Assembly (NCBI GenBank): GCA_034620365.1
Contig: JAQGEQ010000192.1
Coordinates: 3,219,001 to 3,283,000 of the forward strand
Direction: 5' to 3'
DNA from: Pegea sp. RAD2-039
Taxonomy: Eukaryota > Chordata > Thaliacea > Salpida > Salpidae
DNA: 64,000 nucleotides
The first letter of the stretch is position 1; each line of letters begins with the position of its first letter. The notes below the pieces were generated by a model. The model was not told the DNA's origin, ran no database searches, and saw nothing but the letters and a program-made list of their open reading frames with translations. The position numbers were made by a program, and so were the translations under genes. This document shows, in pieces, positions 13,301-63,838 of the stretch.

Positions 13301-16300
13301 CTGAGAGTAAAAAGTTCCTTAAACATCGCCTAAAGTAAAAAAACACAAAACTAGTCTAAAAGATATACCAAAAATCATATATTCAAAATTATTATTAAAT
13401 ATTCTTATCGTTTGCCTATTAAAAGCAAAGTGGGCCATATTTAAACAAAACTATAATTATTTTGTATTCATGAAAGATCTGTAACTGCGTTACAACTAAA
13501 AAACTTAGTTTTTGTTCTGCTAATAACCGAAAAGGCAAGTAAAATAACATTAGAACATTACTTTGATTATTTTATTATTAGTTTTATTTTGTAAAAAAAA
13601 TTCAGCATTTATATAAAAGCAACTCTGAGTTTTTTAGTATAAAATTAAATTTATTGAATAATGAAATAATATAAAATGTCAAAAGTTAATAAAGAATTAT
13701 GGCGACAGTTATACAAAATCAAAAGTATTTTAATTAATAAATCAACTTACAGTATCAAGATGAGTTCTTTGATGTTTAGCTCTATCAGAAGAGTTGCTGA
13801 ATGCTTTTAAGCATCCAGGATGCTGACAGGCATAAGGACGTTCTCCGGTGTGGGATCGAAGATGAATCTTTAGATTTTCTAGTCGAGAAAAGGCTTTGTT
13901 GCAACCTTCATACTAAATTCATAAAAAGTTTACAATACATTCGATAAAGTTTGATTTTTATAGTAACTAGACGTTTATTCAATTGATCATTTTATACAAC
14001 TTTCGGATACTATTTGTACTTTTTTATATCAAACTTCAGATAAATATAGAGACATTAGTATCTACAAAGCAGGAATTTATAGCACTGATAAATTTTGGGT
14101 ATTTACTATTTATGTTCACATAACTCGCTGGTACATCAAAGTATGAGTTTACTGCGTTTTGTACATTTGAGTTTATTATTTAGTGGAATGTGATAAGGCT
14201 ACTGAGGATTGTTAAAAGATTTGTTGTATGCCCGCAGAAAATCCGTTTTTTATCTGAATGAAATACTTTAGAAACTTATTTAAAACTATTTTTCAATTTA
14301 TGAGATAAAAATTAAATAAATTATCTTAGCTTTAAAAGAACTTTTATCTTTTGGTTGTTAATGTCTTAACATCTACCTTTTTGATTTATGTAAGTTTTAA
14401 GTAGAACTAATCTCAAAAATGTATTATTAATTTAAAGTTTCCCAACGATAAAACCAGTAAAATTTTTCTAAGTTTGTTAAATTTATAGTTTACGAAACAT
14501 TTTTTACGTAAAAGTTTCATAATGAATATAACATATTTAATAATTTTATAGATATTCAAATGATGGTTATTTATTCTATTGATTTTATTTACTAACTGGG
14601 AGTTAGCGGGTCGATAAAACCTGTTACGTTCATTCTGAGCTATAAAAACTTTCCTAAATAGAATAAAATGTCATAGATCATATAAAATAGAAATATTTGT
14701 AGATATTCGTTCTTTACCATGAAATGTATTTCAAATTTTCAAAAATCATAGCATAAGTTGCTATCAGTAGAACAAATTTCACTCAATAAGACCATAAGCA
14801 AGTTTATGTTTCGTGATAAGATTAACAACTATTTGCAACATACTATCAAGAGTAGATATCTTGTCGTTATACCCGAACATATTGTTTTCTTTCTTTGGTT
14901 TTTATTTTTTTCAACTCCTCGTTTGTAATACTTTAAATCACTAAATATTTCTTTTAAAGTTATTTCTACGAAAAACAACAAAATTTTTGAAGAAATAAAC
15001 AAATTTTTCAGAAAATATTTTACAATTTGGAGTTTATGTTTGTAATAAAAACTTTAAAACGAAACATTGAAACTTTCAACCATTTGGTAAGTATAAATCC
15101 TTACAAATTTTTAATAGCTTCTTCTTATTTATAAATCGATTTAATTCCGAATAAAAATGGCTCAAAACATCATATTTCTAGTAACTTGTCTTAAATTACC
15201 TACATTTAGCATCTTGGCTAAAAAGTATTTTACTGGTGAAGTTACTCACTGTGCATTTGTTGGGTCGTTCACCGGAATGTACTCTCATATGAATAAGGAG
15301 TTTGTAACGAGCATTAAACGGCTTATGATTTCTGGGGCAGGCGTGCCAGTAGCAAGTAAATTCGTCACTTTTTCGCTGATCAATGTGCATTTTTTCAATG
15401 TGACGAACCAATGTTTCTTGCTCCTATTTAAAAAACATTTTCAAATCTTTAAAGGTTGGCAGAGTATGTTTGTCTTTAATTCTGGAATAATTAAGTACAA
15501 ATGTAAATCATAATTCTATCAAACAAACAATCTTTAAAAGTGTGAAGAAACAGCTTCAGTGATCTCTAGATGAAGCATTTCAGACGTTGACACATTAATG
15601 TACGCTAGTCACCATAAAGCAAATACCACACTTGTGTATTTTATGGTGTATAAACATAGTGGTGATTATTATAAAATTTCTACAAAATAAATTTTAAGTT
15701 GGTTCAATTAGTATAAAGGTCAAGATGATAAATTGACCGCTATTAGTTCTAGGCCTAGTTTAGAGCTTTAACAGCGTCTTACTTCCGCTGTTGCTAATGA
15801 CGATACTGTAAGTCTTCGAAAACGATCTTATATATAAGATCTTGAAAAAAACTTGAAATGCTGTTTGAAAGTCAATAAACTTATTTACTCAATTTATTTC
15901 TGTGGTTCAGCTAAGAAAGCTCTTGGAGATTTAAGACTTTTGTTATCTATAAATTTACTTTTATATTAGCGAAGTCCATAGGTTCATCTAAAAAACTTTT
16001 GACTAGGTTTACTTTTGAATAATTCTAAAATTCTCAAAATTTGGTATTACAATACTATGAAAGATAAACAAAAAATACATTTAGATCAACTGATTCTAAA
16101 AAAAATTAAAAGAAAAGAAATTTAAATTACTGGAAAGTGAAAAAAATGTTTTAACAAAGGTATTTTGATAACTACATCAAACTGTGTTGCCATTATTTCA
16201 TAATATTACTGATACAACTACATAAATTTATAGAGTTAAAACATCCTTTTACCTAAGTTTTCATGCTCTGCTACAATTGGCTATTTTAATAATATTTGTG

Positions 16301-45254: not shown

Positions 45255-45315
45255 ATGTTACGGATGTTAATCCTGCTGACGTTGCTCAGCTCTTCACTGG
45301 GTTCTTCTTTCAATG
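45255..45315 (+). other. FN3 gene exon 1: signal peptide
   Basis: Twenty codons with a hydrophobic core ([14 protein letters not shown]), split from the mature protein by a phase-1 intron with donor G|GTAATT. An acceptor-like TCATTTTAG ends at 45228, 26 bases before the ATG. Confidence 0.8.
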
Positions 45316-48300
45316 GTAATTTTTTAATCTCAATTAGAATAATAAAATACTTTACAATTTTATCAAACTTACTAATTCTGTCGAAGATCTCTCAATGGTT
45401 TCATTTAGTAAACTTTTGCTCAGTTGAAAACTTTAATATTTTTATAATTTGATTTCAATGTCTTAAAATACCTACTTGGCAACATTCGCTAGTTCTTTTT
45501 GGCATTTAATTAAAGATTTTTACAAAACTTGATGTCGACGTAATTGTGATTAAAATAGTTTTATTTAAGATACTAATTAGATTTGATTTTTTTGTTCTTT
45601 TAAAAACTTTACCTTGATAAATTAATTGCGCAACAATTAAGCTTCTTGTATAAAGAAATTACTTTTATTTTCATAAATCTGAATGTTAAGAACTTTCAAG
45701 ATATTTTGGATGTATTGTTTTATAATCTTTCGAAGTAAACCCAGTTTATCTTTTTGCCATGTTTGCAAGATTGAAGTAAAATCATTGATAGCTAAACGGT
45801 ACTTTCGATCAAAGTAATTCAATTAAATGCTTTGTAACTCTGTTGGTTTACTCAAGATTAAATTAGAAATTTAAAATAATTATATTCCATTTAATAAGTT
45901 TAAACTCAACAAATTTTGAAACAGAAGACCCTAATTGCCGCCGTCGTCTCTTTGACCTGATCTTCATTGTTGACGGATCGCGAAGTGTGGGTCACAATAA
46001 TTTTGATCTTATAAAGTCATATGTGGTGAATTTTGTGGACCATTATCACATCGACCCTGGCTGGACCCGCGTTGCTCTGGTTTGTTGATAATATTTCAAT
46101 TTTAGAAGCAAATTCGTTTAGATATTAAATTCTTTTAATAAATTTTTATTTTCTAATTGAAAATTGTTATTTTAATTTGAACCAGGTTCAATATGGAAGT
46201 ATTATCAAAGAAGAAGTCTCTTTGGGAGAATATAATAATAAAACTTCTTTGAAAAAAGCCATCAATGAAGTCAAGTACATGGATGCAGGTATTGCTAACT
46301 TTTCAAACTTTTAATAAAATTTTGTTTTGTTTGCTTATTATCAGTCAAGGTACCTGTTGTAAAATATTTATGAGTATTCTCTTTCATTTTGGCATTCAAG
46401 CTCATTAATAATACAAGACTTTTCGTTTATAACTGAAGTTTGTCACAGTTCAAAAAAAATTATCAACTTTGTACCGCCACTTGAAATTAATTTCTACCAA
46501 CTTTCTTTTTTTTCTTAAGTAATTTTGAGGGCATAATTTCTATAAAATTTATCTTAACTCCTTTTAACTGATTTCATTCAAATTGAATCTTTTTAACTTT
46601 CTTCTATTAAAACATTTATTAAATGGCAATAGTGATTTATAGATTTTTCGAACTTATTTACTAAAGTAAGAAATAATTATTTAGAAGAATGTTGATGACG
46701 ATTTAAATAAAGATAAGTTGCTACTTACGATATTTCAAAGTTGTCACTCATAATAAGATCTTTAATACAAATTTCATAAAACAAAAACGTGCTTTGATAT
46801 GCAAATAGTGATTTTGCTGTACAAGATAACTAAAAAACCTTTTAAAATCATTTTCTATCTTACAAAACGCCGTTGCAAAGACATCAATCAAATAAAATCA
46901 AATGGGTTTGTAAAGCTGGATTCTTTATTGTTATTGGTCAAAGAATTTTCTCCTTAAATGAAATAGTTTTAGTAAATATTCTTTTATGAATATATGTCAT
47001 CAAAAGCTATTATACCTCATTCTAACCGCATTTGCAGAAGTTGACGTCATATCTAAAAATACAATATCATATTGTTATAAGTAAATTGAGAGCAAATTAT
47101 AAACGTTGCACGTGGTCTTTTCATTCATAAGTATTATAATTGTAATTATATTATTTGTTTTTATAATTCTAATATAAAGAAAACACTTGTATATTTAAGA
47201 ATAATAATTTAGCAAAATTTGTTTTCAGCTCATTTGAATTTTCATTAACGATTTTTTTAGTAATTTTAATCCAGAAAATCAAATTTATTATTGAGGCTAT
47301 TTTTAGAGACCTTAAACTTGCAAAATTATAATAAAAGAATCTTTGTATAGTTTTGATGAAGCTTTTATTGTAAAAGTATTAATAAAAATTAGTGATTATG
47401 ATAAGTGAATAGTTTTTGAAACAGATTTAGACATTTTCGGTTTTAATTAACTTTATTTTTTTCGATGTAATACTTAAATAAATAAATTTAATAAATAATG
47501 ACTGTTAAACGCCGTTCAACTGCAGCGAGAAATGTTCTCGAATTATTTGAATAAAGTTGTTTTCCTACGAAGATTAGTCTTCCGACCTCTTTCAAAATAA
47601 TATCAAACAAGACATCTCTCTAACTATTACTAAGTATTTATCAAATCAGAACTACATCAAAACTTATTGACGGTTTAATAATAAACTTTTACGTTTAAAC
47701 TCTTTTTTTCATAGGAAGCATGACTGGGCGAGCATTGAAGCATGTAGCTGTCAACTTGTTAAGTCCTGGCAGTGGCTCACGAATAGGAAACCACGCAACG
47801 AAAACTAAAGTGATTGTGCTAACGGATGGTAGATCACAAGACAGTGCGTCAGGGACAGTTTCAAAATATCAGCAAGAGATTAAAGTAAAACATTTTATAC
47901 AAAAATCAATTCATAAAGTAAAATTTCACCAAAAACTAGTATAAAAACTTTATTGTTCTGCTCAAATTTTCTAAATAGATTGGTTATAATTCTGTTTTCA
48001 AAAACTTTATAGCTTAAAAAACTCGAATTAAATAAATCTAGATAAATGTTAAGTATCAAATTAATAGTTTTGAACAGCTAAATTTAAGCAGAATCAGAAA
48101 TCTTTTTCTAAAATTACAAAATATGTTTTGAATTGATTCATATCTTTCATCACTCTGTCTACTATTTTTCAATGAAATACTAAAAGAATAGTCAAAGTAT
48201 ACATTATAAAAATCTTTTAACAGTTCCTAAGTTCTTGCTCTGACTTTAACGTAAAACAAACAATGATATTACTTTATTTACATCAGGATTTAGGAGCAGA

Positions 48301-51300
48301 ACTTTATGTAGTGGCTGTGGGTACGACGGTCAACATGACAGAACTGACCGAAATTGCTTCAAAACCTGCATCAAAGTATCTTCATCGTTACAACAAATTT
48401 GGTTCAATTCGACTGAGTTCTCTTGAGATTGGAGATGATGTTGAATGTGGTGAGCTTCATTCAAATTTGGTTAAATCACATTTAAAGTTATTGATTTTTG
48501 ATTTAAGTAAAAGCTTATAAAGTATTTAATAAACACTTTGAATGAATAGTTTAGGATGACTGTTGCAAAAGTAAAAATTAAAGTTTAAAGAAATGTTTAG
48601 TTATCGTAAAAATATTGCCTCAATTTTATGTGTGCTCTCTACATACAAGAATTGTAAATAGAAAAACTTTGTGCAAACAACTTGATCTAAATTTGACTTG
48701 CTTTCAAAATAATCGTATTCACTTTTATAAGAATCGTTTGAACTTTTTTCAAACTTTAGATTGTAGCTTTATTTTCTATTTCAAAAATTATTAAACTAAA
48801 TGATGGTGAGTTCAATGTTATTATGAACGTTTTAAAACTAAAATTGCTTTTAAAATATTGGTACAAGCATTCGGAAGACTGAATGAACTCGAAAAATGTG
48901 AATATATAAGTATGATATGGCTATATAGTAAAAAATTGCTTTTAGTCCCACAAATATTTCGATTGTTAAAAGTTCAACTATTCTAAATCGATCAATAATC
49001 TAATAGAAAAAGTTATACAAGAATAAAAGCATTTAAAAAGAAATCCCTTTGTTCTATTTAACTAATTGAATTTTATAAGTCTATAAAATTACTGTAATTA
49101 GTGTTTTGTTCCAAATATATTTTTGCAACAAATAGTACTTCAACAAAACAATATTGCTGTGGTCTATTCTTCATCATTACTAGTAATTCACTGGCTGAAA
49201 AACGAACAGATAGTTGAAAATATTTATTCAAAATTATTTCATAGAGCTATAAAAATATTTTCGATAAACTATATTTGTTAAGTGCGAAATGACCGAAAGA
49301 ATTAAATTATTAAATAGACATCAAAGGTATTATAATCAAATAAAGTAATAATAACAAAAATTAGGTTTTTGATTTCATAAAATGATCATTCATCCATACA
49401 AAAATGCAAAGCTGGTAAACATACATTTGGGTTATTCACTATTTCCTAATTTAGACATCAATGAATGCTCAAGTGACTCGCATGGGTGTGAACAACTCTG
49501 TATCAATACTTTTGGCTCATACAAATGCAGCTGCGAAGAAGGGTATGGTCTGGATGCAAGCGACAATAAAACATGTCACGGTTAGATGAGCATAGAGCTG
49601 GGCGTTTCAGTTCCTTATTGAGCATGAAAGTTCTAAAACCCGTCTATCAACCACTAATTAACTGCACTTACATTATGGCATCATTTTATTTATCTAACGG
49701 CTAAAAATAATACTGCATGCTGCATTAAGATCAATATCTATCGTGCCAATGACTATGTTTTTAGTTTGAATTTACAAACAATAACAACAAAAACAAACTA
49801 ACTTAATGAATCAGCGAAAGCCTACAATTTAGCAAAACAAGGTTGAAGGCCGATTGCTTAACCTAATTGGCTAAATAATGAAAGTAATTTCACTTAAGCG
49901 ATCAAAATAATTATAATTATTTGTTTTTAATTGTTTTTTTTATGGTGATACAAAAATACTTTAATTTAAAATAACTAATGAACACTGCTTTTAATTCTCA
50001 AAAAGCATTTCTCTGCTAGTAATGCTGAAAATCTTTATGGTCACTTTTTAATTTCTACTATTTTGTAAAGTTTAATTTTGTGTTTAGTTTATAATTGTGC
50101 AATATTGAACAAAAAGTTATATCAACAAGCAAATGCATGTCTAATTTCAGGATTTAAAATTCCTAAAGCTTTTTTAAATCTATAGATTAAATCCTACTCA
50201 ATTTAAAGTAAGATTACTAACGATAAGAAGCTTTAAACATAGCTTCCTTGAATTAAATATTGAACAAATAATCTAGGTTGTATGTTAGACAATTCTTTTA
50301 TCATTTTATAAACCTTTATGATTTGAACCCACTAATTGTTTTACTATATAACAGAGAAAAACGTCCCAGCCCCAATTGACTTGGACTTTAAAAATATAAC
50401 TGTGACAAGCACAAACCCACAATGGAATTTGCCGCCTAGTGATGATCGTATATATCTTCCGGTTTCATTCTTCAATATTTCGTATAGAAGATCAAATAAA
50501 CGAGGAAATTGGAAAACTGTTTCTGTTTATGGTAAGTAATAGCTACTTACAGATGATAAGATTTAACTAATTAAAACTGAAATTAAGATATTCTAAAGAA
50601 AATTTAATTGTTGAAAGTCATAAAGACGAATCCAAATTTTTAAGATTAAAATGATAAACAAAAAAATTTCTTTAAAAAAAATAAATTAAATTTAGAGAGA
50701 TTTATTTTCATTTATTACATTACAGTCAACAATTAAACTGAATAGAAATAATACGATTTTTGTTGATCTGAATAATTAATTGGTTTATAAATACATATGA
50801 GGTGGTCTTCTGCTCATCAGCCAATAAAAATACTTTCTCACTAAACTTCAAAATTACTTTCTTATCATTTGAAGAAGTTCATTTGGAAGCAGTGTAATAT
50901 CTTATAGAGTATAATAAGCTGTATATAATGTGTGAAATATTAGCCAGTAAAGCTTATCAATTCTTTAGTGGGCAAGTATAACTTGACATATGAAGTATCA
51001 CCTGTCACCCACTTTCTAAATTTATCTTTATATTTTAAGAAATTTTAAATTAAATTGAAGAAAAAAAAACAAAGAAAAATTGACGCTAGTATGTGAGTTT
51101 CATACATTCATTTTTTATTTTCTATTTAAAATTGAGTTTAAAAGTAACTTTTTTACAAATACTTTCTCAAAAAAATATATAAATAAAAAATATATAGCTG
51201 CATATCCTAGAAGTGTCTTCATTCGCAAATAATTTTTATGATCAAACAAAATACTAACACTTTGTATAATATTTACCCATCAAAAAAAGCTTTACAAACA

Positions 51301-54300
51301 AGAAATGATTTTATTTGGTCAGCTTGTTTAGTTGATGCAACTATAGATAGATTTTATACATTTAGTTTACATTCACAGTTCTTAGAACAGCCAGATTATA
51401 ACTAAGTTTTAATGACATTTTTTTAAATATCAACAGTGTGTGTGATATATTATCTAATTATATCCCATATTGTGTATATTTCAGCTTAATTAGTGGCAAT
51501 CTCAACATTTTTTTTCATTTTAGCCATCTAATAAATATCAAATAATGTACATTAGTTTTATATCAGTTAAAATAGATATGTTTCATTAACTTGAAAAGTT
51601 GTTTAGTCTTTAAGTAATCTTAAATGTATTCGTTATAAGTAATTTAGATTCATAAAACATAATCAGAATTAATGAATAAAGTTTTGAAAACTAACTGATA
51701 ATATTAATAACAAAATATTATCCTAAAAACTTATTGAAGAATCATAGTTTCTAGATTTAAACGCAAATAATCTTTTTATGAAAAGCTTTCATCGCTTTCA
51801 TCACTTTATCTTATGTTTAAAAATAAGTTTGATTTTTCTATAATAAGGCCAAATTTGCATGATGCATAAGATTGAAGTAATAAATTTCAAAAAAAATTTA
51901 TATAAGCGTATTAAGATAGATTTATAATTAAATTAGTTTTAAAATTTTTACATTTAAATAATTTTTCAATAAAAAGTTTTGCTGTTCAGTAAAATATACT
52001 TTTTTTAAGCCTTGAACGGAAGAGATTGAAAGATTTATAATAATATTTTTATGAGTCTTTCACTTAATATTTAAATTGAAATCAAGTGAATTATTGAAAT
52101 CAAATAACAAAAATTAGCATCTACTGATACAAACAAAGTAATTAGATTACTCAATAATCAAAGACTAATCAAATTAAAATTCAAAACGCTAAAATTATAT
52201 ATAAGTGTTTATAAAGCAGCCGAGTTTGTTCGAAATGTTTGGAAGCTACATATTAGTAAAAAATTGGGAACTTAAATATTCAAACTTATTGCTGATCTAA
52301 ACATTTTTGCAAGCAACTTACCTCACTTCTACTTGATTCATCTACATTTTCAGGAAGGTTTAATAATGATTTAATAACGTAATACTCAGATAATCTCACA
52401 TACTTAATTTGCTTGTTTAGGGTAAGTATAAGTAACTAAAAGCCAAATAAATAATTTCACAGAAAGTTGTAACCACGAGCTCAAAATTAAAAGACAAGAC
52501 CTAATCTTGAAATGATCGCATAATAATAGTTTTCACTGAACATCAAAATATCTGTTTTTTAATTCATTTTTTTCAGATAAAACTCATAAAATTGAGGATT
52601 TAAGAGCAGGCACTGAATACGAGTACAGAATTACTTCTGTTGCGTCAAATGGGAAAACTTCAGAAACTAAAAGAGGAAAGTTTACAACAGGTTGGTTTAC
52701 AATTAAAAGTATAAAATTTTTACTGTTTAAACGTGCGATTTATTTATTGCAAATTGAATTACCAAATTTTTAATAGTGGCTCAAATGATTATTTATTCAT
52801 TAAGAGTTACCTGGTCACACATCAATCACTTTATTTGACCCGACTTCACATTCTCTTACTGCCCGCTGGTCTACAACTGGTGGTCCTGGAATAACTGGGT
52901 ACAAGCTTCGCTATGTAAAATATTTGAACAGTTCGATGAGAGATCCGAATTTTCAGGTAAGCAAGCAATATAAAACGAAAGAGAATTTTTGATAAATATA
53001 AAACGAATTTTAAGAATTATTTTTCTAATTATCAGCTTTTTGACCTTGAACAAAATTTATGGGTTTTAAACCCATTCTTTTGAATAATTTATACACACTT
53101 TGAAGTAAAAGCCATCAAACGTCAGGTTGTCATCTATTGCGATACAGATTATCTAAAATGAAATCACTTTTTTTTAAATTGTTGTTATTTAAGATCGAAG
53201 AGGTTATGTAAATTTTTGCCAATTTATAACTATTGTGTAACATATTGTTGTTACTAACTAATGAAGCCAAAGAAAGTTTACAATTTTATTCTTTTAATGA
53301 AATTTAATAAAACTTTTAAACAATTATCTGATTTTACAACTGCCTTAGATGCTAAGATTAGCCACAAAAATATTTTTTACTTCTTACGGTAGTTACAACA
53401 ACTACATACAGCAATTTACAAATTATCAGTGATTAGAGTAAAGTAAATTATTAACTTTTTAAAACATTTACTCTGAAATATCATAAAATACTTTGATAAT
53501 ATTTAAATCCCAAATTATATTTGAAAAATTCAACTTTTATTAAATAATAATAAACTATTTAAAAGTGGATTTGATGCTTAATGTTACATAAAAAATCGCT
53601 TTAAGAAATACTTGAGATGAAATTTACTAAAAACTTTTGAAGTAGAATTAAAAGCTAAAATAAATGTCTTAAGTAAGCTTTATAGTTCAATTTTATTTTA
53701 TCAAAATGCGAAATGCTGTAAGCTAATACAATAAATTTTCAAGTTATTATAACAGCATTATATAGATCAGATTGCTAAAAGATTTTGAAATTGATAAATT
53801 AAGTCTTTCAATTAAATCTCGTCATACTAAAAGAACTTGATAAAAACATAAAGACAGTAATTTAAATTGATTTTTACCAGCATAGAAAAAACTGTTTTGT
53901 TTTAAAAGCAAGGTCTTACTCTAAACGTGAAGGTCAGTAAAATAATTTCACTTTTATGAGTCACAGCATTGGCACTAAGAGCATTTTATGTTACTCACAT
54001 TGAGTCTTTTTTCAGACGAAAGCCTGTCCACTCAGTTTTATTTCTCTAATTTAAAATCATGCTTGCAGCTCAAAGTAATTTTGAGAGTTATTTTCTGACA
54101 GTAAGTGTTAGTGGAAAGAGCTAAGCAAAAGGAGCTCGATATTAATTTGTCATTTATGATTTTTACTCAAAATGATAAACTTTAATTTATTCTAGTCAAA
54201 ATTTTCATCGCTAATATAAATTATTTTATAATTAGATTATTTAAAATGTAATTTTCACTATTTTATTGTTAAGTTTTTGTCTAAAAACATTTAACAAATT

Positions 54301-57300
54301 TATGTGGTTTCTTCTTTTTTAAAAATACATAAGAAGGTAGTATTAAGATGCGATTTCATATTTGAAAATTTTTTTTAATTTTTTTCTCGAAAAAGGCTCA
54401 TTTCAATCAAGTAAATTTTTTTAATCTGTTTTGTTGAGTCGTTGGCTTTCTGTTTACACTGCATCCATTGTTATAAGCTCGATCAAGTAGTTTAAAACTC
54501 ATTATTCAAAAACGGGCAGTTGATTATAAATTTTTGTTCTATAAATTTCTGCTTCTGCAGTATAAGCCGATTTATAACTTAAAAATAAATAAATGAAATC
54601 TTATCTTTTATTGAATGTTTTGTAGGAGTATCGTTTACTGCAAATTCAGTTTTATTTAAAAACAGAGCATAGCTAGGCAGAGGAATTATGTTTCTTAGGC
54701 TAATGCTGTTCCTTTTACTTTTAAGAACTGTTTGCTTGAGAAAGGTAAATGATGTTATGATTTTTATCTAAGCCTTATTTATCGATTATCCATAAATATT
54801 ACCAAAAATTATTTGATTGTTCGCTTGTTTCGATTTTATCTATACATTCACATATCTTGATAATGATATTTTATTAAAATCGTTAAATAATAACCTGTAT
54901 CTTATCAAGTTTCTATTCATATATTTTAAGATAATTATAATAAGAACTTTATTTCTACCTTAAAAAGCTAAAAAAGTGATTTTGTTGATAAGAAGCTTAC
55001 TCATTTGTTTTTTATCTAAACATATCAAGTTGTCAGTGGGTTAGTTGTCGACAAATTATTGAAAGATTTAATCAGTAATTTAAGAAGCAATTTTTTTACC
55101 CGTTTATCAAAGTTATTTTATTGATATTAAAAAGCCACATAATAATAAATCAGTTTAAAAAGTTTTTCAATTAACAATTGGAACAAAACTGAAATGGTTT
55201 TTCAAAGAACTTTCTATTTGCGATAAAAGATTGAATCTCTTAATGTCGATCAAAACTTTTTACTTAATGCTCAGTAATTCGAGCGTATAATGCATGGTGT
55301 AAACTTGACTTTTTCTTTTATCCTTCATTTACTATGATGTAATACTCAGACAAAATCGCGTAAATTCAATAAAGATGTACGAGAGCATGTGATTCGACAA
55401 TTAGAACCAGACACATACTATGACGCATGGGCAACAGCGTTGTATGGCACACAGGAAGGGAAATCAGTGGACCATTACGGTTTACGAACAAGTAAGACTT
55501 AACTTTAGTTTAAACATATAACTCCACTGACTAAAAATTTATGAATGACCAGCAAAAATGGTTCCATCTGTCACTAATCTTCGATTTGATGATAAAAGTC
55601 CATATACGGTAATTGCTTATTGGGATCTGTTTGGCGATTCACCAGAATTTGAGAAGATCGAATACTATGTCATCAAATGGTGGCGTGTGGGTGCCAAAAG
55701 AAAGATGATTATTCGAAAGACACAAGGTGAAATCAACTTAAAGAGTTACTAAGACTTAAAAATGTATTGTTGGCAGATACCCAGTGTACAATGCGACATT
55801 TACGACAGGGACGTCAGTATGCTGTTTCAGTTGCTGCTGTATCGGAGTCTGGTGAAGAAAGTGAAGAGATTTACGGAGATTTTGCCACAGGTGAAAGAGT
55901 TGTTTTTTAATACTGGAATTTGTATAAAAGTTGTTTACAGTTGCTTATGACAAGCCTCGATTACGTTTATTCCGACCAACCTACAGTACCATCAACGTCA
56001 AATGGTCTATAGATGATCGAGCAGAAATCACTGGATTCCAACTCAAATATTACCCTTCTGCCGAATCAGAAACTAATGTTAGTTAAATCTACTATTTTTT
56101 TCGAATTTGAAATTTGTTTTTTTTCAAGGCTCAAACAATGATATTGAAGAAAGAAATTAGAAAAGTTGTTTTGATTTCGTTATCGCCTGGTACATTGTAC
56201 ACTGTTAAATTAACTCCCCAGTATGAACACATCAAAGATAAAGCAGTTGTAAAGCAGATATCGACAGGTGGAGTATGAAACTGGTTTCATGAATGATTGC
56301 TTTAACTTTCTTGTATCAACAGTTGAATTAGGTCGAAGTATAGTTGAGTTTATGAGATCTACTCTAAAAACCATCACATTTAGATGGAAGGTTGATAAGG
56401 TTGTTGAACTAACTGGATTTAAAATTATTTATTATGGCTTAAGGTCAACAGCAGAAGTAAGTTTTTAAATCTTTGTATAAGCTTTTAATTCTTTGCAAGT
56501 TTTTCTTATGAGCTCTTCAATGTTGAACTAAATGTTGACTTTCAAACAGGTTAATTCTATTCAAGTTGGCGAAATAGTAAGGGAGCACACTTTAGAAAAT
56601 TTGAAACCTAATTCAACTTACATTATTTCTGTAATTCCAATTTATGACATTGAATTTGGTGAAAGTAGTGATGTAAGCATGACCACAAGTAAGAGCGGAA
56701 AGATCCAATTCTTGTTGTTTAACAATAAATACTTGAAAGATAACAATCACTGTTTTAAATAAAATGAGTTATAAACACTTTTTGAAAATTATTCTATAAA
56801 ACTTTCTTCTAAAATTTATAATTTTGTCAATTATTTGAAACAGAAACTTACGCTGCTATTCAGCTACAAACCAGTGATGTGAAGGCAACATCTTTTGAAG
56901 TTAGATGGGGATTAGAAGAGGAAGAAGATAATATAGATGATATAGATGAGATTACTGAGTATCAATTAAAAGTTCGACAAATACAAGAAGCTGAAGATGA
57001 TGTAAGGAAAAATATATTAAATATTTGTAGAAAATCTAAATCTTTTTGAAAGCAATTAACTTCTTTATCAAATTGAATTAATTTTGATTAGGCAAGAAAT
57101 ATTCTATAAATAAAAACTAAAAACCGTTTAAATAGCTTCCTAAAAAATGTTTTTCAATATCACTTATTTCTATAAATTTAAATTGTTATTTATTCAGGCT
57201 AAATTATTTGTCTTTGATGGAAGTACACACAAAACAACTTTAACTGATCTAGAACCAGAAGCAAAGTATGTTGTGGAATTAACTCCAATGTATGGAGATG

Positions 57301-60300
57301 AACCTGGTAAAACTATATCAGAGACAGAAGTTACAGGTAAACAAAAAAGACTGAAAATTATGACCAATCTATGTCAATGAACGTTTGACAATTTAAATGA
57401 CAATTTTAAACCCACTAAACTTTCAACAAATATTAAATTCAGCTCCTATTGGTGGAGTTCAGCTTGAATTTGTAGATTCGACTTCCGATTCAATTATGTT
57501 TCGATGGACTGTAGATGATACTGATAATTTACTCAATTATCGTTTATTGTATTACGAAAACCATTCAGATAATAGCCAAGTAAATATTTTATCGGGTTGA
57601 CTTTGTATAAATGAGATGAAAGTTTTCTCTTATGTAAATTACTTTATAAAAATTAACCTTTTTAAATGAAACTTTCACCGCAAGCAATTAATTTACTAAT
57701 AAGTTAAAATTATGTTGTTGTATAAATAATACTACAAACCTTTATACTCAGGAAAACATTTTAGTCTTAGATTCTCAGGCAAGAGAACACACTTTGACTG
57801 GTTTAAAGTATTCCACAAATTACACCATTGAATTAACACCAGTTTATGACAAATATAGAGGAATTAAAAGTAGCAAATTCATGATGACAAGTAAGGAATT
57901 CTTATAAGTAAATCTTTATTTAGCTCTGTAATTTTAGGAACAAACAATTCAATTAAAATAACTATGGCTAATTTTCCATTTCACAGAGAATAAATTATAT
58001 CAATTTGAAGATTTGTAGTTCGCTTCACATTAAATTAAACGAAAATTTGTACATAGTTTTGGTTATCATTAAAAAATGAATTGAAATTAGTTTTGAAATT
58101 TAGCTTTAATCTTATGTATGATGGTTTTTCTAATATTATAGAATTACAAGCTTGCAGCATATGTAAATATGCTATGAATAATTTTACTTTCAAAAAACAA
58201 ACAGAAAAATTGAAAATAGTTCAGTTACGCAACGTTAACATTGAACAAATAAACGAAACATCAGTAAGATTGACGTGGAAAGTTTACAAAGAAGGTGCTG
58301 ATAACAAAGAATTGTCAATAAATGATGTAAGCTGGAAACCTAAGAATAAAAAACAAACAAAGAAGGCTTCAACTAAAGGTGCCCTGTCAGATTTGTTCAA
58401 CTCGAAAAGTTTCTTATTATAAACAACTTAAATATTAAACTGTCAATCATAGAAAAATATTTTCATTTTATTTGGCTAAACTAATGTTTAACTCCAAAAA
58501 TCTCTGAAATTTATTTTTCTAATAAAAGATGAATAAAACTGATAATAAACTAACTATTCCAGAGAATTCATTGGTCATCAATGATCTGCAACCAAATGTC
58601 GAATATGTTGTAAAAGTTCAGGCATTATTTGGAAGTGGAATAAAAAGCAACTCAGTAAAAAAATACTTCACAATAGGTTTGACGTCTTCTAACTAAAATC
58701 TTAATAATCTAAACTATTTATTTTGTTCAAATTTCATCATCTGTGACTCACAATTACGATAATCTGAAAGATTTTCAATCTTGTAATGTTTTATATAGTC
58801 TATACTGTATAAAATTAGTTTTTCAATGATTTTTTATGAAAAAAGCAATCTAGAATTTCATTGGAAACATTAATTTACCTTCATCTCAAATAAAACTTCG
58901 ATCCACAGACGTTGATTTGATTCAAACAGTAACGACAACAGAAGTCACAAAAATGAAGCAAATTACTTCTGTAAGAACAACAGCTACAAGTTTACTAAAT
59001 GAAGATAGCACAACAGCGCAAAGTAAAATGCCAGGATCATTAAAAGAACATGATTCTTCAGTGGAAACAACTACAAAATTGATGGACAAATTAAAAGAGG
59101 GACATTCAAAGAAAACTAGGTTGACCGTAGTTGAAACAACAGCTTCTAACATCACAGTCCGCTGGAGTCATGTTAAAAAAGCCGGATTGATTGGTTTCTT
59201 GTTAAGATATTATAAGCTCAATGACAATGAACAAAAGGTACATTATATTAGAATAGCTTTACCGTAATTTTGTAACAACTGTGCAGGTTATTGAGCTTGA
59301 AATGAGTCCTCACACTCATAAGAAAACGATCTCAAACTTGGAACCAGATAGTTCAATGTTTGTAGAGATCATACCACTTTACGATGAAGAAGAAGAAGGT
59401 AAAGCAGCTTCAAGAGTTATAAAAACAGGTGAATAGGTGAACGGCTTTGCGCATGAAACTTTAATTTATTCAATTTGTAGAAGCGTTAAAAATCCCACAA
59501 GTGAGTGACCTTCAAGTTAGCTCTGTCACAACTAACTCAGCAAAAGTGCAATGGAAAAGTTTGGCATCAGATGATGAATATGAACAAGTTGCTTATTATC
59601 TCATTAAGCTTAGAAGAGATGGAATTACTAGCTATGATCTTGAAGCAGAAATTTCAGGTTAAAAGGTTTTTCTGATAAATCAAAGTCATTTTTAACAAAG
59701 GTCTTTTTAATCTCAGCTCTAGAAACGACATTGATTAATTTGTATGAAGAAACCAACTATACTATTAGTGTTGAGGCTTTTACTCTCAGCGGTCAACGCT
59801 CATCAGAAATTAACAAAACTTTTTCAACTGGTTAGATATAGTTAGACAGATTCTTAGTATTTAAGTTCTGAAAAGTCAATCATCAAAATTATACTCTAGG
59901 CTCTCCATCACTTAAATCTGACTTGCTGATTACTGATGTAAATCGGACAAAGACATCAATAAGCATTAAATGGGAAAGTAGAAATGAAATGATACAAGGC
60001 TATCAGCTGAGATGGAAGGAAACTGATCAAGCTAATGAAGAGGTTTATCTAATATTAGTCCAACTGCAAATTTCGAGTTTTTAGCTTTTTTTATTAGGAC
60101 TTATCTGTGAAGGAGCTCGATAAAAAAGTTTCAGAATTCACAATTTCTTTGTTAAAACCGGCAACTACATATACAATTGAACTAATTCCTCTATACAATG
60201 ATTATATTGGAGAACCTGCAACTAAAAAAGTTTCTACTTGTAAGTATCTTTTTGTAGTCTTATGCAACTAACATATAAGAAACTTGTCATCAGTAAGTAG

Positions 60301-63300
60301 CCGGGTTCCAGCTGTCATTGGTTTAGAAGTGGAGCCGATTTCAACTACTTCTGCAGCAGCTGTTTGGTATCTTGAAGAAAATACTGATGAGCAAGTAGTC
60401 CAGTTTTATCGAGTAAATGTATTTTCACAAACTGATGACAAGTATGTATTTAAAGACACAACAAAAAGTGAGTAAATAAAAGCTGGGTAGCTAAAACAAA
60501 TTAGACTTGTAAATATTTCAAAAGTTTTATCTTGAAAAAATATCAAAATGTTTTACTCAAAAATAAACATCGTTTTTATAGACAGATCTATTATCATCAA
60601 CGAATTAGAACCTTATGAAGATTATGTATTAGAAGTAACACCTGTTATAGATGACACTATTGAAGCACTTACGTCAAAGTTTAAATTCAATACAGGTGAT
60701 AATATTGCGAACATTAATTGAAATTTATTAAGTTAAAACTTGTATCTACTATTTTGTTAATTGATTTTTCAAAAATTTATTTCTACAATTTGATTATGCT
60801 TCAGATATTTATGTTTTATGCAAGTTGAATAATAGTAGTGTATTATTATTTTTTGGTAACAAATTTTTTGTGTTTACTATTTAGCTCAAGTTGTACTAGT
60901 ACCGGTTGAAGTTCCTACTTTGCTGGTGAAAAGTACGAAACCTACCTCAATATCATTAGAATGGTTTATAACTGTGGCTGATAAATATCTACTTAACTAC
61001 TCCATCATAGAAGATGGTAGAAAAGAAGAAGTAATTTTCATTAATTTAATCTAATAATCACAATTCGAAAAAAAAATCGTAAAATCAAATGATCAAAAAT
61101 TAGTTCTATTTCTATTGCTGTCAAATAAATACTTTTTACTTATTAGGTTGATAGCTTACTTTTTGAGCTAGGAACAACAGAAACAGAATTAACTGGTCTT
61201 GAACCCAGCACCAATTATGAAATTCAAATAACTCCTATATACAATGGAGAGAATGGAAAACCTGAATCAATTATAGTGCTTACAGGTTCTCTCATCTTTA
61301 TTTACCTTGCAAAAAATCTAGAAATATTTGAGAGCGCTTTTGTCAGACGATTTGTATGAAAAGAATGAAATGTTTGAGCTTTTAAACTTTTAAAGATTGC
61401 AATCATACTTTAGATGTAGTTAGTATATGCAAAATTCATACTTGCAGATGAATTGCTTTTGCCAACATTGGAACTTCTTGATGTTACTGTTCTCTCCCCA
61501 ACATCTGCCTTAGCAGAATGGCAAATTTATGGAACTGATGAACAATATGATCCTATCGACTATTATCAAGTTACTTATTGGTCACGTGAGCAAAAGGGTC
61601 CAACTATTCAGGAACAAATTGAAGGTATCTGATACTTTAAACCGTCTATATTATCAGATTATAGCTGATTTTTTTTCATTTTAAAATGAATTTGATAACA
61701 TTAATAACTTCATAATAGGTAACGAAAATGAAACTGTTTGTCATCGTAATTCGATAAATGTTGTTTACTGTAACTTATCATTTTATACGCAGCGAACACT
61801 TTCAAATTAAGCTACTTAAGTATGAATAAAGCGTATACAGTAAAAGTCACAGGCCACACTGAGGGTGGGTTCACAACAAACTCAATGAGAGCTAATTTTA
61901 TTACAAGTAAGAAGGCGTATTTGTTTGATTACATGCATATCAAGTTATGCAAAAGTTAATTACTCGTATCAAAAATACACAATTTCAAATCGATTATTTT
62001 AGATGAGGCAGAAAGTCTGGAATTAAAAGCTACAAATTTAAAAACCGATTCTTTTGATGTCAACTGGTTGGTAGAAAATAGTGAGGATATTTCACGATAT
62101 TTTATAAAATATTATGAAACGGAGAAACCGAATGAGAATGTAAGCTACTAGTTTTTAGATATAAGTAAAACTGTTTCTCTTCACTTCCAAGACGTTATAG
62201 AATTCTATTTATTCTAATTAGATGGAGCCAATACCAGTTCATCCAACAGCAACACATAAAACATTTTACAATCTGATGCCTAACACCACTTATACTGTTG
62301 ATGTAGCACCGGTTTATGGTTTTGAAGTTGGTGCATCAACTGTTATTGAAGTAACCACAGGTAATGATGATGCGAACAAATAACTATTGTGCGGTTTGAA
62401 TGTATCTTTGAAGTCTTGTATCAAGATTTTTTTAAGACAACACTGAGACTTCATTGTATATGATTGACTTAAAGATGAAATTTATCTAATAACATGAAAA
62501 AACATTTTTTAACTTTCTTTCTATTTACTACATTTTTCTTTATAATAGAAATATTTTTAAACCTCAATTTTGTAATGAGAAAATGAAATCTACTCTAAAT
62601 TTGTTTTTCTAACTTATGATAATGTATTACAGCTTCCTTATCACCAACTGAACTGACAGTTGCAAATGTGACAACTTATTCAATACTTGCTAAATGGACC
62701 ATCAATGAACACCTTGCCAAGCACATCACTGGTTATTTACTTCGCTATTACTCCACAAATGACCAAAACATGGTGCGTAAAATGTGATTTTCTTGAAGAA
62801 ACTATTTTTGAATAAAATAATAGCTTTATGCTGATAGATTAAAAAGCTGTACGCCGACTAATTTCTTTTAGAAAGTGAAAATTAATATATCGATTGAAAA
62901 TTGTTCCTTGTAATAAATATGAGACTATTTTTCAAGTAAATAAAAATTATAAAGTATTTATAATTCTACAGCCTGAAGAAATAGAAGTTTCTAAAAACAC
63001 TCGAGAAACTAATCTGGAAAACCTTCAACCTAATACAGAATACACAATAATTCTCATTCCAATGTTTGATGAAGTTCCTGGAGAAGAACTGAAAGCAGTT
63101 GGATTTACGCTTCCTTCTGGTTAGCATTCAATCAAAAAAGTTTATTATTCTACAAACTTTACTTAAATACTATTATAGAAGGGAGTGACATAAAAATTGC
63201 AAATCTGAAAGTTACAAATGTTACAATGACATCTGCATATGTGAGCTGGGAAATAGAAAATACAAATGATTACGACGCTGAAGTCTTGTACTACTTCTTC

Positions 63301-63838
63301 ACGTTGAGTGATGATGAAGTTGAACTGATTAGTAGTGAAACTTCAGGTAAGTAATCGTTTAAAACCTTATCTTATCTCATTGTTTTCCATAACAATCATC
63401 TATTGATAGACTTTTGCTTTTACAATTACTCTAAATTTGATTTATTTGACAGAAACCTCATATGAGCTGAATGATCTAGACCCAGAAACTTTTTATTCTG
63501 TTTCGGTTGCTGTGCAAACCACTAAAGGCTTGGTAACACCAGCTAACCAGCAGTTTACTACCAGTAAATAAATTTTTTTGGTGTTTTTTTTATATCATAT
63601 ATTTACTTTGATAAACCAAAAACCTCAAGAGAACAGCTGAGCGTAAAAAATATTTCTCAAATAGTAATAAGAAACATTAAACAGCTTTAAATCTTTTACA
63701 GAAAGCTTAAGTAAAATAATGATAGAAAAATTCAATTCAACAAGTGATTCAATTACTGTCGTATGGAATACTACTGACAGCAGTTTTCTAACTGAAATTG
63801 AAATGGAAGTACGAGTAGACAATGACGAAGAAGATGAT
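45255..63838 (+). CDS. Giant secreted VWA-EGF-fibronectin III protein (3' end outside window)
   Basis: Extracellular matrix or adhesion protein, closest in layout to the VWA/FN3 part of FACIT collagens XII/XIV and to tenascin-type arrays. At least 41 exons join without a stop into 1984 codons here; the reading continues past 63838 via a GTTAGT donor. Order: signal peptide 1-20 ([20 protein letters not shown]); VWA domain about 21-217; calcium-binding EGF 218-259 (DINEC); then FN3 domains from 260, seventeen complete and an eighteenth begun. Each FN3 domain is built from two exons, with phase-1 introns between domains. Exon 23 adds a Ser/Thr-rich spacer of about 70 residues before FN3 9. No collagen Gly-X-Y repeat, membrane segment or stop is seen in the window. 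The start is the first ATG before the signal peptide; TATA-like and E-box sites lie upstream. Confidence 0.9.
45925..48449 (+). other. FN3 gene exons 2-5: von Willebrand factor A domain
   Basis: Exons 45925-46079, 46186-46288, 47715-47884 and 48287-48449. The metal-ion-dependent adhesion site is complete: D37-x-S39-x-S41 (IVDGSRS), T110 (GSMTG) and D144 (VLTDG). It should therefore bind a divalent cation and a ligand as matrilin/collagen-type A domains do. Cys25 and Cys217 bracket the domain as in matrilins and can form the closing disulfide. The intron 46289-47714 (1.4 kb) shows nothing recognisable. Exon 2 ends with a GTTTGT donor. Confidence 0.93.
49455..49580 (+). other. FN3 gene exon 6: calcium-binding EGF domain
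   Basis: A single symmetrical phase 1-1 exon encoding [12 protein letters not shown], then [12 protein letters not shown] and [12 protein letters not shown]. The DxNEC start and the N-x3-F/Y-GSYxCxC middle are the cbEGF signature (PROSITE-type consensus). All six cysteines are present. Donor is GTTAGA. Confidence 0.93.
50355..58676 (+). other. FN3 gene exons 7-22: FN3 domains 1-8
   Basis: Exon pairs: 50355-50531 + 52577-52690; 52805-52956 + 55350-55491; 55553-55726 + 55777-55890; 55941-56077 + 56129-56267; 56323-56456 + 56550-56688; 56844-57001 + 57198-57336; 57443-57579 + 57752-57890; 58205-58378 + 58563-58676. Most keep the FN3 landmarks: a Trp in strand B (for example FRW, VRW, LTW), Tyr or similar in strand C and the 'L-x-P-x-T-x-Y' turn ([32 protein letters not shown]). 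Domains 1, 3 and 8 have an internal phase-1 intron, the others phase 0. Introns 50532-52576 (2.0 kb) and 52957-55349 (2.4 kb) hold nothing recognisable. Confidence 0.88.
58909..63838 (+). other. FN3 gene exons 23-41: FN3 domains 9-18 (last partial)
   Basis: Exon pairs: 58909-59237 + 59287-59428; 59481-59657 + 59717-59830; 59900-60042 + 60098-60239; 60294-60467 + 60582-60695; 60885-61030 + 61147-61285; 61448-61624 + 61793-61906; 62003-62139 + 62222-62360; 62633-62772 + 62972-63119; 63179-63346 + 63453-63563; 63702-63838 + next exon outside. Exon 23 begins with a spacer full of Thr and Ser ([25 protein letters not shown]) that may be O-glycosylated. Typical second-half strings are [30 protein letters not shown] and [15 protein letters not shown]. 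The acceptor of exon 29 (TCATCAG at 60293) is the least certain. Confidence 0.88.

Follow-up and report, generated by a model that had tools for sequence, protein, structure and literature searches.

Alternating intron classes along a long FN3 array suggest growth by two-domain units in a predicted matrix-type gene of the salp Pegea

How can one tell by what unit a domain array was copied long ago, when its members retain little sequence similarity? The question is raised by a gene in a window of 64,000 nucleotides (C3:3219001-3283000; all window coordinates below count from the first base of this stretch) from the genome assembly of the salp Pegea sp. RAD2-039 (GCA_034620365.1; assembly size 105.7 Mb). 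The gene encodes a long row of FN3 domains, each split over two exons by an internal intron that is in phase 0 (class A) or in phase 1 (class B). The original prediction, made from the sequence of the window, proposed that the two classes are lineages marked by intron phase, and that an ancestral B-A unit was duplicated as a block. We find that the internal intron marks two lineages of FN3 domains, and we consider it probable that a B-A pair, copied as a block, is the best explanation of the array, the domain order alone bearing the trace of such copying.

Within the window the exons were rebuilt by hand from splice sites and reading frame. The model comprises 35 exons between 50355 and 63838 on the plus strand, contains no stop codon and has the order BABAAAABABABABAABA. 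Class B is represented by D1 (50355-50531 and 52577-52690), D3 (55553..55890), D8 (58205..58676), D10 (59481..59830), D12 (60294..60695), D14 (61448..61906) and D17 (63179..63563), and class A by D2 (52805-52956 and 55350-55491), D4 (55941..56267), D5 (56323..56688), D6 (56844..57336), D7 (57443..57890), D9 (58909..59428), D11 (59900..60239), D13 (60885..61285), D15 (62003..62360), D16 (62633..63119) and D18, of which the first exon (63702..63838) lies in the window and the second 93-234 bases beyond its end. D1 is placed by the hand model, and D2 to D17 by the hand model together with the exon-chain program described below. The first exon of D9 (58909-59237, 329 bases) carries a Ser/Thr-rich spacer ahead of the domain. 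With this spacer exon excluded, exon sizes in D1-D17 are 134-158 + 139-148 bases for class A and 168-177 + 111-114 bases for class B. The order, the internal and flanking phases and the size ranges of the original prediction are thus reproduced in 35 of 35 exons. Its near-constant exon sizes are exact within the window and looser across the full set of 42 domains (A 131-182 + 133-151, B 168-207 + 108-132).

The array continues into the next 40 kb. There we used an exon-chain program whose score comprises only codon use, splice sites and frame, and which has no rule on A or B built in. Trained on the 35 hand exons, it recovered 34 of them, a figure that is partly circular because the training set consists of the same exons, whereas the results beyond 63838 are out of sample. 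The single miss is the first exon, which has an ambiguous CAG|AG acceptor and for which the hand boundary was kept. Past the window the chain completes D18 with its second exon and adds 24 complete domains, D19-D42, which extend to about 14.3 kb beyond the window end. These are 12 B and 12 A domains in perfect B-A alternation, which has a probability of 7.4e-7 under random order. The donor of D30 was shifted, with phase 0 in both versions. For D22 the chain gave a phase-2 junction, both sides of which were re-set to phase 0 by homology (one of the 24 new domains, one of the 42 in total).

Altogether there are 42 complete two-exon FN3 domains, 23 of class A (1:0:1) and 19 of class B (1:1:1), in the order BABAAAABABABABAABABABABABABABABABABABABABA. 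All flanking introns are in phase 1, and AG acceptors and GT donors are present at 84 of 84 exons. The array opens with a B domain directly after an EGF-like exon and closes with an A domain (D42). Each of the 19 B domains is followed by an A, and no two B domains are adjacent, an arrangement expected from a random order at a probability of 9.5e-8. Spliced together, the exons from 45255 through D42 encode 4381 residues with 0 stops. Like the order, the phases, the intron positions and the protein split described below, this model is built on predicted exons. Alternation ends after D42: the 78393-81752 region (window-extended coordinates) contains first a single domain whose intron is in phase 0 and sits at the A position, next a doubtful domain, and then three FN3-like domains whose internal introns are in phase 2. 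Since these domains break the rule, the description as two classes holds for the central array only.

Two lineages can be told apart by the phase and position of the intron. On a maximum-likelihood tree of the 42 domain proteins, A and B are separated by a single change (support 97/93, a rough value as discussed below; 96% of 200 bootstrap trees), an outcome that favours A and B lineages over the free interspersion that the original prediction had named as evidence against itself. When the class labels were shuffled on this tree, a mean of about 14 changes was needed, and none of 500 shuffles was as low as the single change observed. The intron-bearing columns 35-52 and 57-96 extend from the C-C' region as far as the beginning of strand E; on a tree built without them, from the 68 columns left, the split is kept (98/88, likewise rough; 97% of 200). 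As the proteins split in the same way without the intron columns, the internal intron serves as a lineage mark. The part of the original prediction that held phase to be a marker independent of the diverged protein sequence needs qualification, because the proteins themselves carry the same split: mean identity is 22% between A domains, 21% between B domains and 17% between the classes, with 35% for the top same-class pair.

The introns of the two classes also lie at different places in the domain. The distance from the intron to the conserved F-strand Tyr is 21-27 residues in class A (23 residues in 12 of 23 domains) and 13-17 residues in class B (14 residues in 14 of 19). On the profile of the array, the A intron is found at positions 46-52, in phase 0, in 23 of 23 domains, and the B intron at positions 54-58, in phase 1, in 19 of 19. 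The distinct positions and phases indicate two different introns, not one intron slid by a base. When residues are counted along the fourth stretch of 1fnf, taken here as fibronectin repeat 10, the B intron falls just before strand E and the A intron at about the C-C' loop.

The same two patterns are known from FN3 domains of R3 receptor phosphatases, for which a published analysis gives the patterns 1:0:1, 1:1:1 and 1:2:1 and uses them as lineage marks (PMC5336234). The first two are found here in 23 and 19 of the 42 domains, respectively, with D22 assigned by homology. That paper also places 87% of the FN3 internal introns of these phosphatases in the strand C to E region, which makes intron hot spots conceivable. 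Phase would be uninformative on descent if there were a single FN3 lineage in which an intron had moved, or had been inserted repeatedly, at two favoured spots, and a fibronectin-like gene on C1, described below, does have phase-0 introns at the A position and, in 1 of 26 domains, a phase-1 intron at the B position. However, sliding or independent gain would scatter the labels over the tree, as the shuffles do, instead of leaving one change, and it is contradicted by the two protein groups that persist without the intron columns. We therefore regard it as highly improbable.

Given two lineages, the order of the domains suggests how the array may have grown. In lineage A the phase-0 intron cuts at about the C-C' loop, and in lineage B the phase-1 intron cuts some nine codons later, just before strand E. 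We propose that the two lineages are old and became neighbours in the form of a B-A pair. This pair, or multiples of it, would have been copied by unequal recombination in introns, giving about 19 pairs in a row, and additions of single A domains or a few losses of B domains would have produced the AAAA and AA runs. All 42 domains are of class 1-1, with phase-1 flanks, so that any whole number of them can be copied or lost with the frame intact. Such frame-neutral copying of class 1-1 modules is an established principle of exon shuffling. Class 1-1 modules are those used in shuffling (PMC8001218), and repeat proteins grow by several domains at once, with two-domain units the commonest over all families (PMC1553488). 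It is the order that speaks for the ancestral B-A unit of the original prediction: the alternation runs through 24 domains that the prediction had not seen, with B first, A last and an A after every B.

Several observations weigh against this reading. The distances among B domains do not correlate with those among the A domains that follow them (Mantel r -0.035, p 0.65, 19 pairs); for pairs of an A and the next B the values were r 0.089 and p 0.14 (18 pairs). Among the repeat offsets none reaches significance (best family-wise p 0.29), and blastn of the array detected no DNA-level repeat, so that the proposed block duplication has no sign in the sequence. These null results neither help nor refute it, because saturation (within-class identity 21-22%) would give the same outcome. 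The main copying unit reported for FN3 is four domains (PMC1553488), a unit that BA BA blocks would also produce. The bootstraps of both trees were unsettled (correlation 0.77 and 0.95), which makes the support values rough, and most inner forks are open. In a quick tree to which 43 other FN3 domains of the genome were added, there is no single split: B requires 2 changes and A requires 4, and at least four fibronectin-like domains stand beside A domains and one inside B. This enlarged tree has 85 rows, with the 43 added domains taken from four of nine other modelled regions; it comes from a short search, and 62 of its 82 inner forks are open. Finally, all exon junctions are predicted, and one of the 42 internal phases, that of D22, was set by homology. 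The growth of the array is old.

Alternation might also be maintained by selection for function, whatever the copying unit was, if unlike FN3 neighbours misfold or aggregate less. Neighbours in the array share a mean identity of 17%, as against 22% for A-A pairs, and selection against aggregation has been weighed as a possible reason for unlike neighbours (PMC1553488); the same paper favours multi-domain copying as the main cause. Selection alone makes no alternating order out of single copies, and it explains the keeping of the alternation more than its origin. The AAAA and AA runs break the pattern, and the four adjacent A-A pairs are 15-27% identical, close to the A-A mean of 22%. We consider selection unlikely as the explanation, and prefer the copying of B-A pairs.

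The A runs (D4-D7 and D15-D16) allow two histories within the copying of B-A pairs. The original prediction invoked separate multiplication of single A domains, which agrees with the grouping of D05 with D07 (95/89 in the 42-domain tree, 84/81 in a tree of A domains only). Single clades of D04-D07, D05-D07 and D15 + D16 were neither found nor rejected (p-AU, from the approximately unbiased test, 0.17, 0.34 and 0.34), and this part of the prediction therefore stands as one of two possible histories, as a loss of B domains fits as well. The runs would then be gaps in a perfect (BA)n array and not extra copies of A. The perfect alternation outside the runs, the lack of any BB run and the failure to recover D15 with D16 or D04-D07 as clades are all in line with such losses. 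On the other hand, the introns between consecutive A domains measure 55, 155, 106 and 272 bases and could not accommodate the remnant of a B domain (about 290 coding bases); D05 does group with D07; and the p-AU values reject neither history. We regard B loss as a possible variant of the best explanation, and hold it tentatively.

The array belongs to a gene whose 5' part encodes other extracellular-type modules, all on the plus strand. A start-codon exon (45255..45315, phase 1 out) encodes a hydrophobic, signal-peptide-like sequence, as judged by eye. It is followed by a vWA domain on four exons (45925-46079, 46186-46288, 47715-47884 and 48287-48449; Pfam VWA, 137.8 bits, above the Pfam cut-off, residues 31-203), whose closest solved relatives by sequence are the vWA domains of collagen VI and proximal thread matrix protein 1, and by the EGF-like exon that precedes D1 (49455..49580, phase 1-1; Pfam EGF_CA, 36.9 bits). 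In Pfam, the N-terminal 260 residues match eight families, all of vWA or EGF type, and not the FN1 and FN2 modules found at the N terminus of fibronectin; an NCBIfam search with the N-terminal piece gave no match. All four array domains sent to Pfam (two A and two B of the 42) match PF00041 with 36.1-38.5 bits (cut-off 25), and profiles built from 11 of the 23 A and 11 of the 19 B domains have fibronectin and titin chains as their best matches. The predicted gene product is a vWA-EGF-FN3 protein of extracellular-matrix type with at least 42 FN3 domains, and is probably secreted.

Paralogues were sought with one A domain, D07, which at E 0.1 gave six matches, five within its own gene and a weak one on C27. 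A weak DNA match at C257 was discarded, since it overlies intron sequence. Among the 112 matches listed for the N-terminal piece, 15 cluster at C58:265285-414221, all over the vWA part. Searches for the arthropod cuticle family PF00379 and for the COX1 family each gave 0 matches, the former being uninformative since its controls were silent too.

The architecture can be compared with those of several known FN3 proteins. PTPRQ and PTPRO, both R3 phosphatases, have phase-1-bounded FN3 domains with internal introns in phase 0 or 1, as in this gene, and PTPRO has four 1:0:1 domains in a strict pattern; in PTPRQ, four intron classes are mixed, with no strict alternation described in the accessible text (PMC5336234). 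PTPRQ and PTPRO are membrane phosphatases, whereas the gene studied here starts with vWA and EGF modules (a phosphatase domain was not sought). In tenascins, as here, the number of FN3 domains varies through domain duplication and some domains lie on two exons, whereas the duplicated domains of tenascin-W lie on single exons (PMC1578592, PMC11401434). Tenascins carry a fibrinogen-related domain at the C terminus; a C-terminal piece of 320 residues has FN3 matches and no fibrinogen match in Pfam at E 0.01, the 3' end of the gene being unsettled. No Gly-X-Y run, as expected for collagen XII or XIV, which combine vWA and FN3 domains with a triple helix, was noticed by eye in the listed plus-strand open frames of at least 45 residues up to 40 kb past the window, with no dedicated search made. 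A late exon at 81606-81752 (extended coordinates) codes for a heptad-like stretch led by Cys, for which Pfam gave no match even at E 10. This stretch may be a candidate oligomerisation coil; a likeness to matrilins, which have vWA and EGF modules and a C-terminal trimeric coiled coil, found no Pfam support.

Among other FN3 genes of the genome, a fibronectin-like gene at C1:1045244-1069247 combines an FN2 module (69.4 bits) with a long FN3 array whose middle consists mostly of phase-0 exons. An Ig-like stretch matches V-set below the cut-off (19.5 versus 26 bits), and no FN1 module was matched by Pfam in either end piece. Ig modules within the FN3 array are described as unique to tunicate fibronectins, which also have phase-0 exons at their centre (PMC5006582). 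The C1 gene therefore resembles the published tunicate fibronectin in its FN2 module, its weak Ig-like match and its phase-0 central exons, though without a matched FN1 module. Taken by itself, this likeness makes a tunicate source of the genome likely, the weak Ig-like match and the lack of an FN1 match lowering the confidence somewhat. Like the gene studied here, the tunicate fibronectin Ci-Fn is an extracellular protein with a long FN3 array; unlike it, Ci-Fn contains FN1, FN2 and Ig modules and has many central exons bounded by phase-0 introns (PMC5006582). No A/B alternation was seen in the C1 gene. In its first stretch, 12 of 14 mapped internal introns are in phase 0 at profile positions 47-50, the A position; more widely, 14 of 26 domains have a phase-0 intron at 46-50, the others having introns elsewhere, including the one phase-1 intron at the B position. 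These phase-0 introns at the A position hint at a possible origin of the A intron before the alternating gene arose.

A gene model at C8:530001-548000 contains FN3 domains every ~530 residues, and seven of its eight introns are in phase 0 at the class B position. Position alone is therefore insufficient to assign a class. At C1:737-836 kb, FN3 matches are dense and lie in open frames of great length (6547 residues in the longest); this is probably a titin/twitchin-like muscle gene.

Two further observations lie outside the FN3 genes. On the minus strand of the window, an exon at 15250-15423 encodes a C2H2 zinc finger (zf-C2H2_15, 65.4 bits), with predicted same-strand exons at about 11.5-22 kb; we presume a likeness to GLIS factors. 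By eye, C1:1074110-1076552 and 1082460-1084990 appear as two nearly identical tandem sets of predicted transporter-like exons.

Both intron classes of FN3 domains and the multi-domain copying of FN3 are already published (PMC5336234, PMC1553488), and the array shows no new mechanism. Neither this gene nor a strict A/B alternation was found described in print, in a literature that was mostly other than subscription journals. An alternation this long and this strict within a single gene, read after similarity has worn out, was likewise not found in print. In earlier work on multi-domain expansion sequence similarity was the main guide to the unit (PMC1553488), whereas here the guides are intron class and domain order. 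The gene is a clean example of an old array whose copying unit, no longer legible in the sequence at 21-22% identity within a class, remains legible in these two features, and the same approach might be extended to other long genes of FN3, Ig or cadherin type.

We speculate that the B-A pair could be an ancient supermodule, its alternation kept beyond mere inheritance since unlike neighbours fold and assemble better, although we think this improbable. If it were so, the array would form a rod composed of some 20 two-domain units, and intron class would be a fossil record that persists after sequence similarity has faded, from which repeat growth could be traced in other giant matrix genes.

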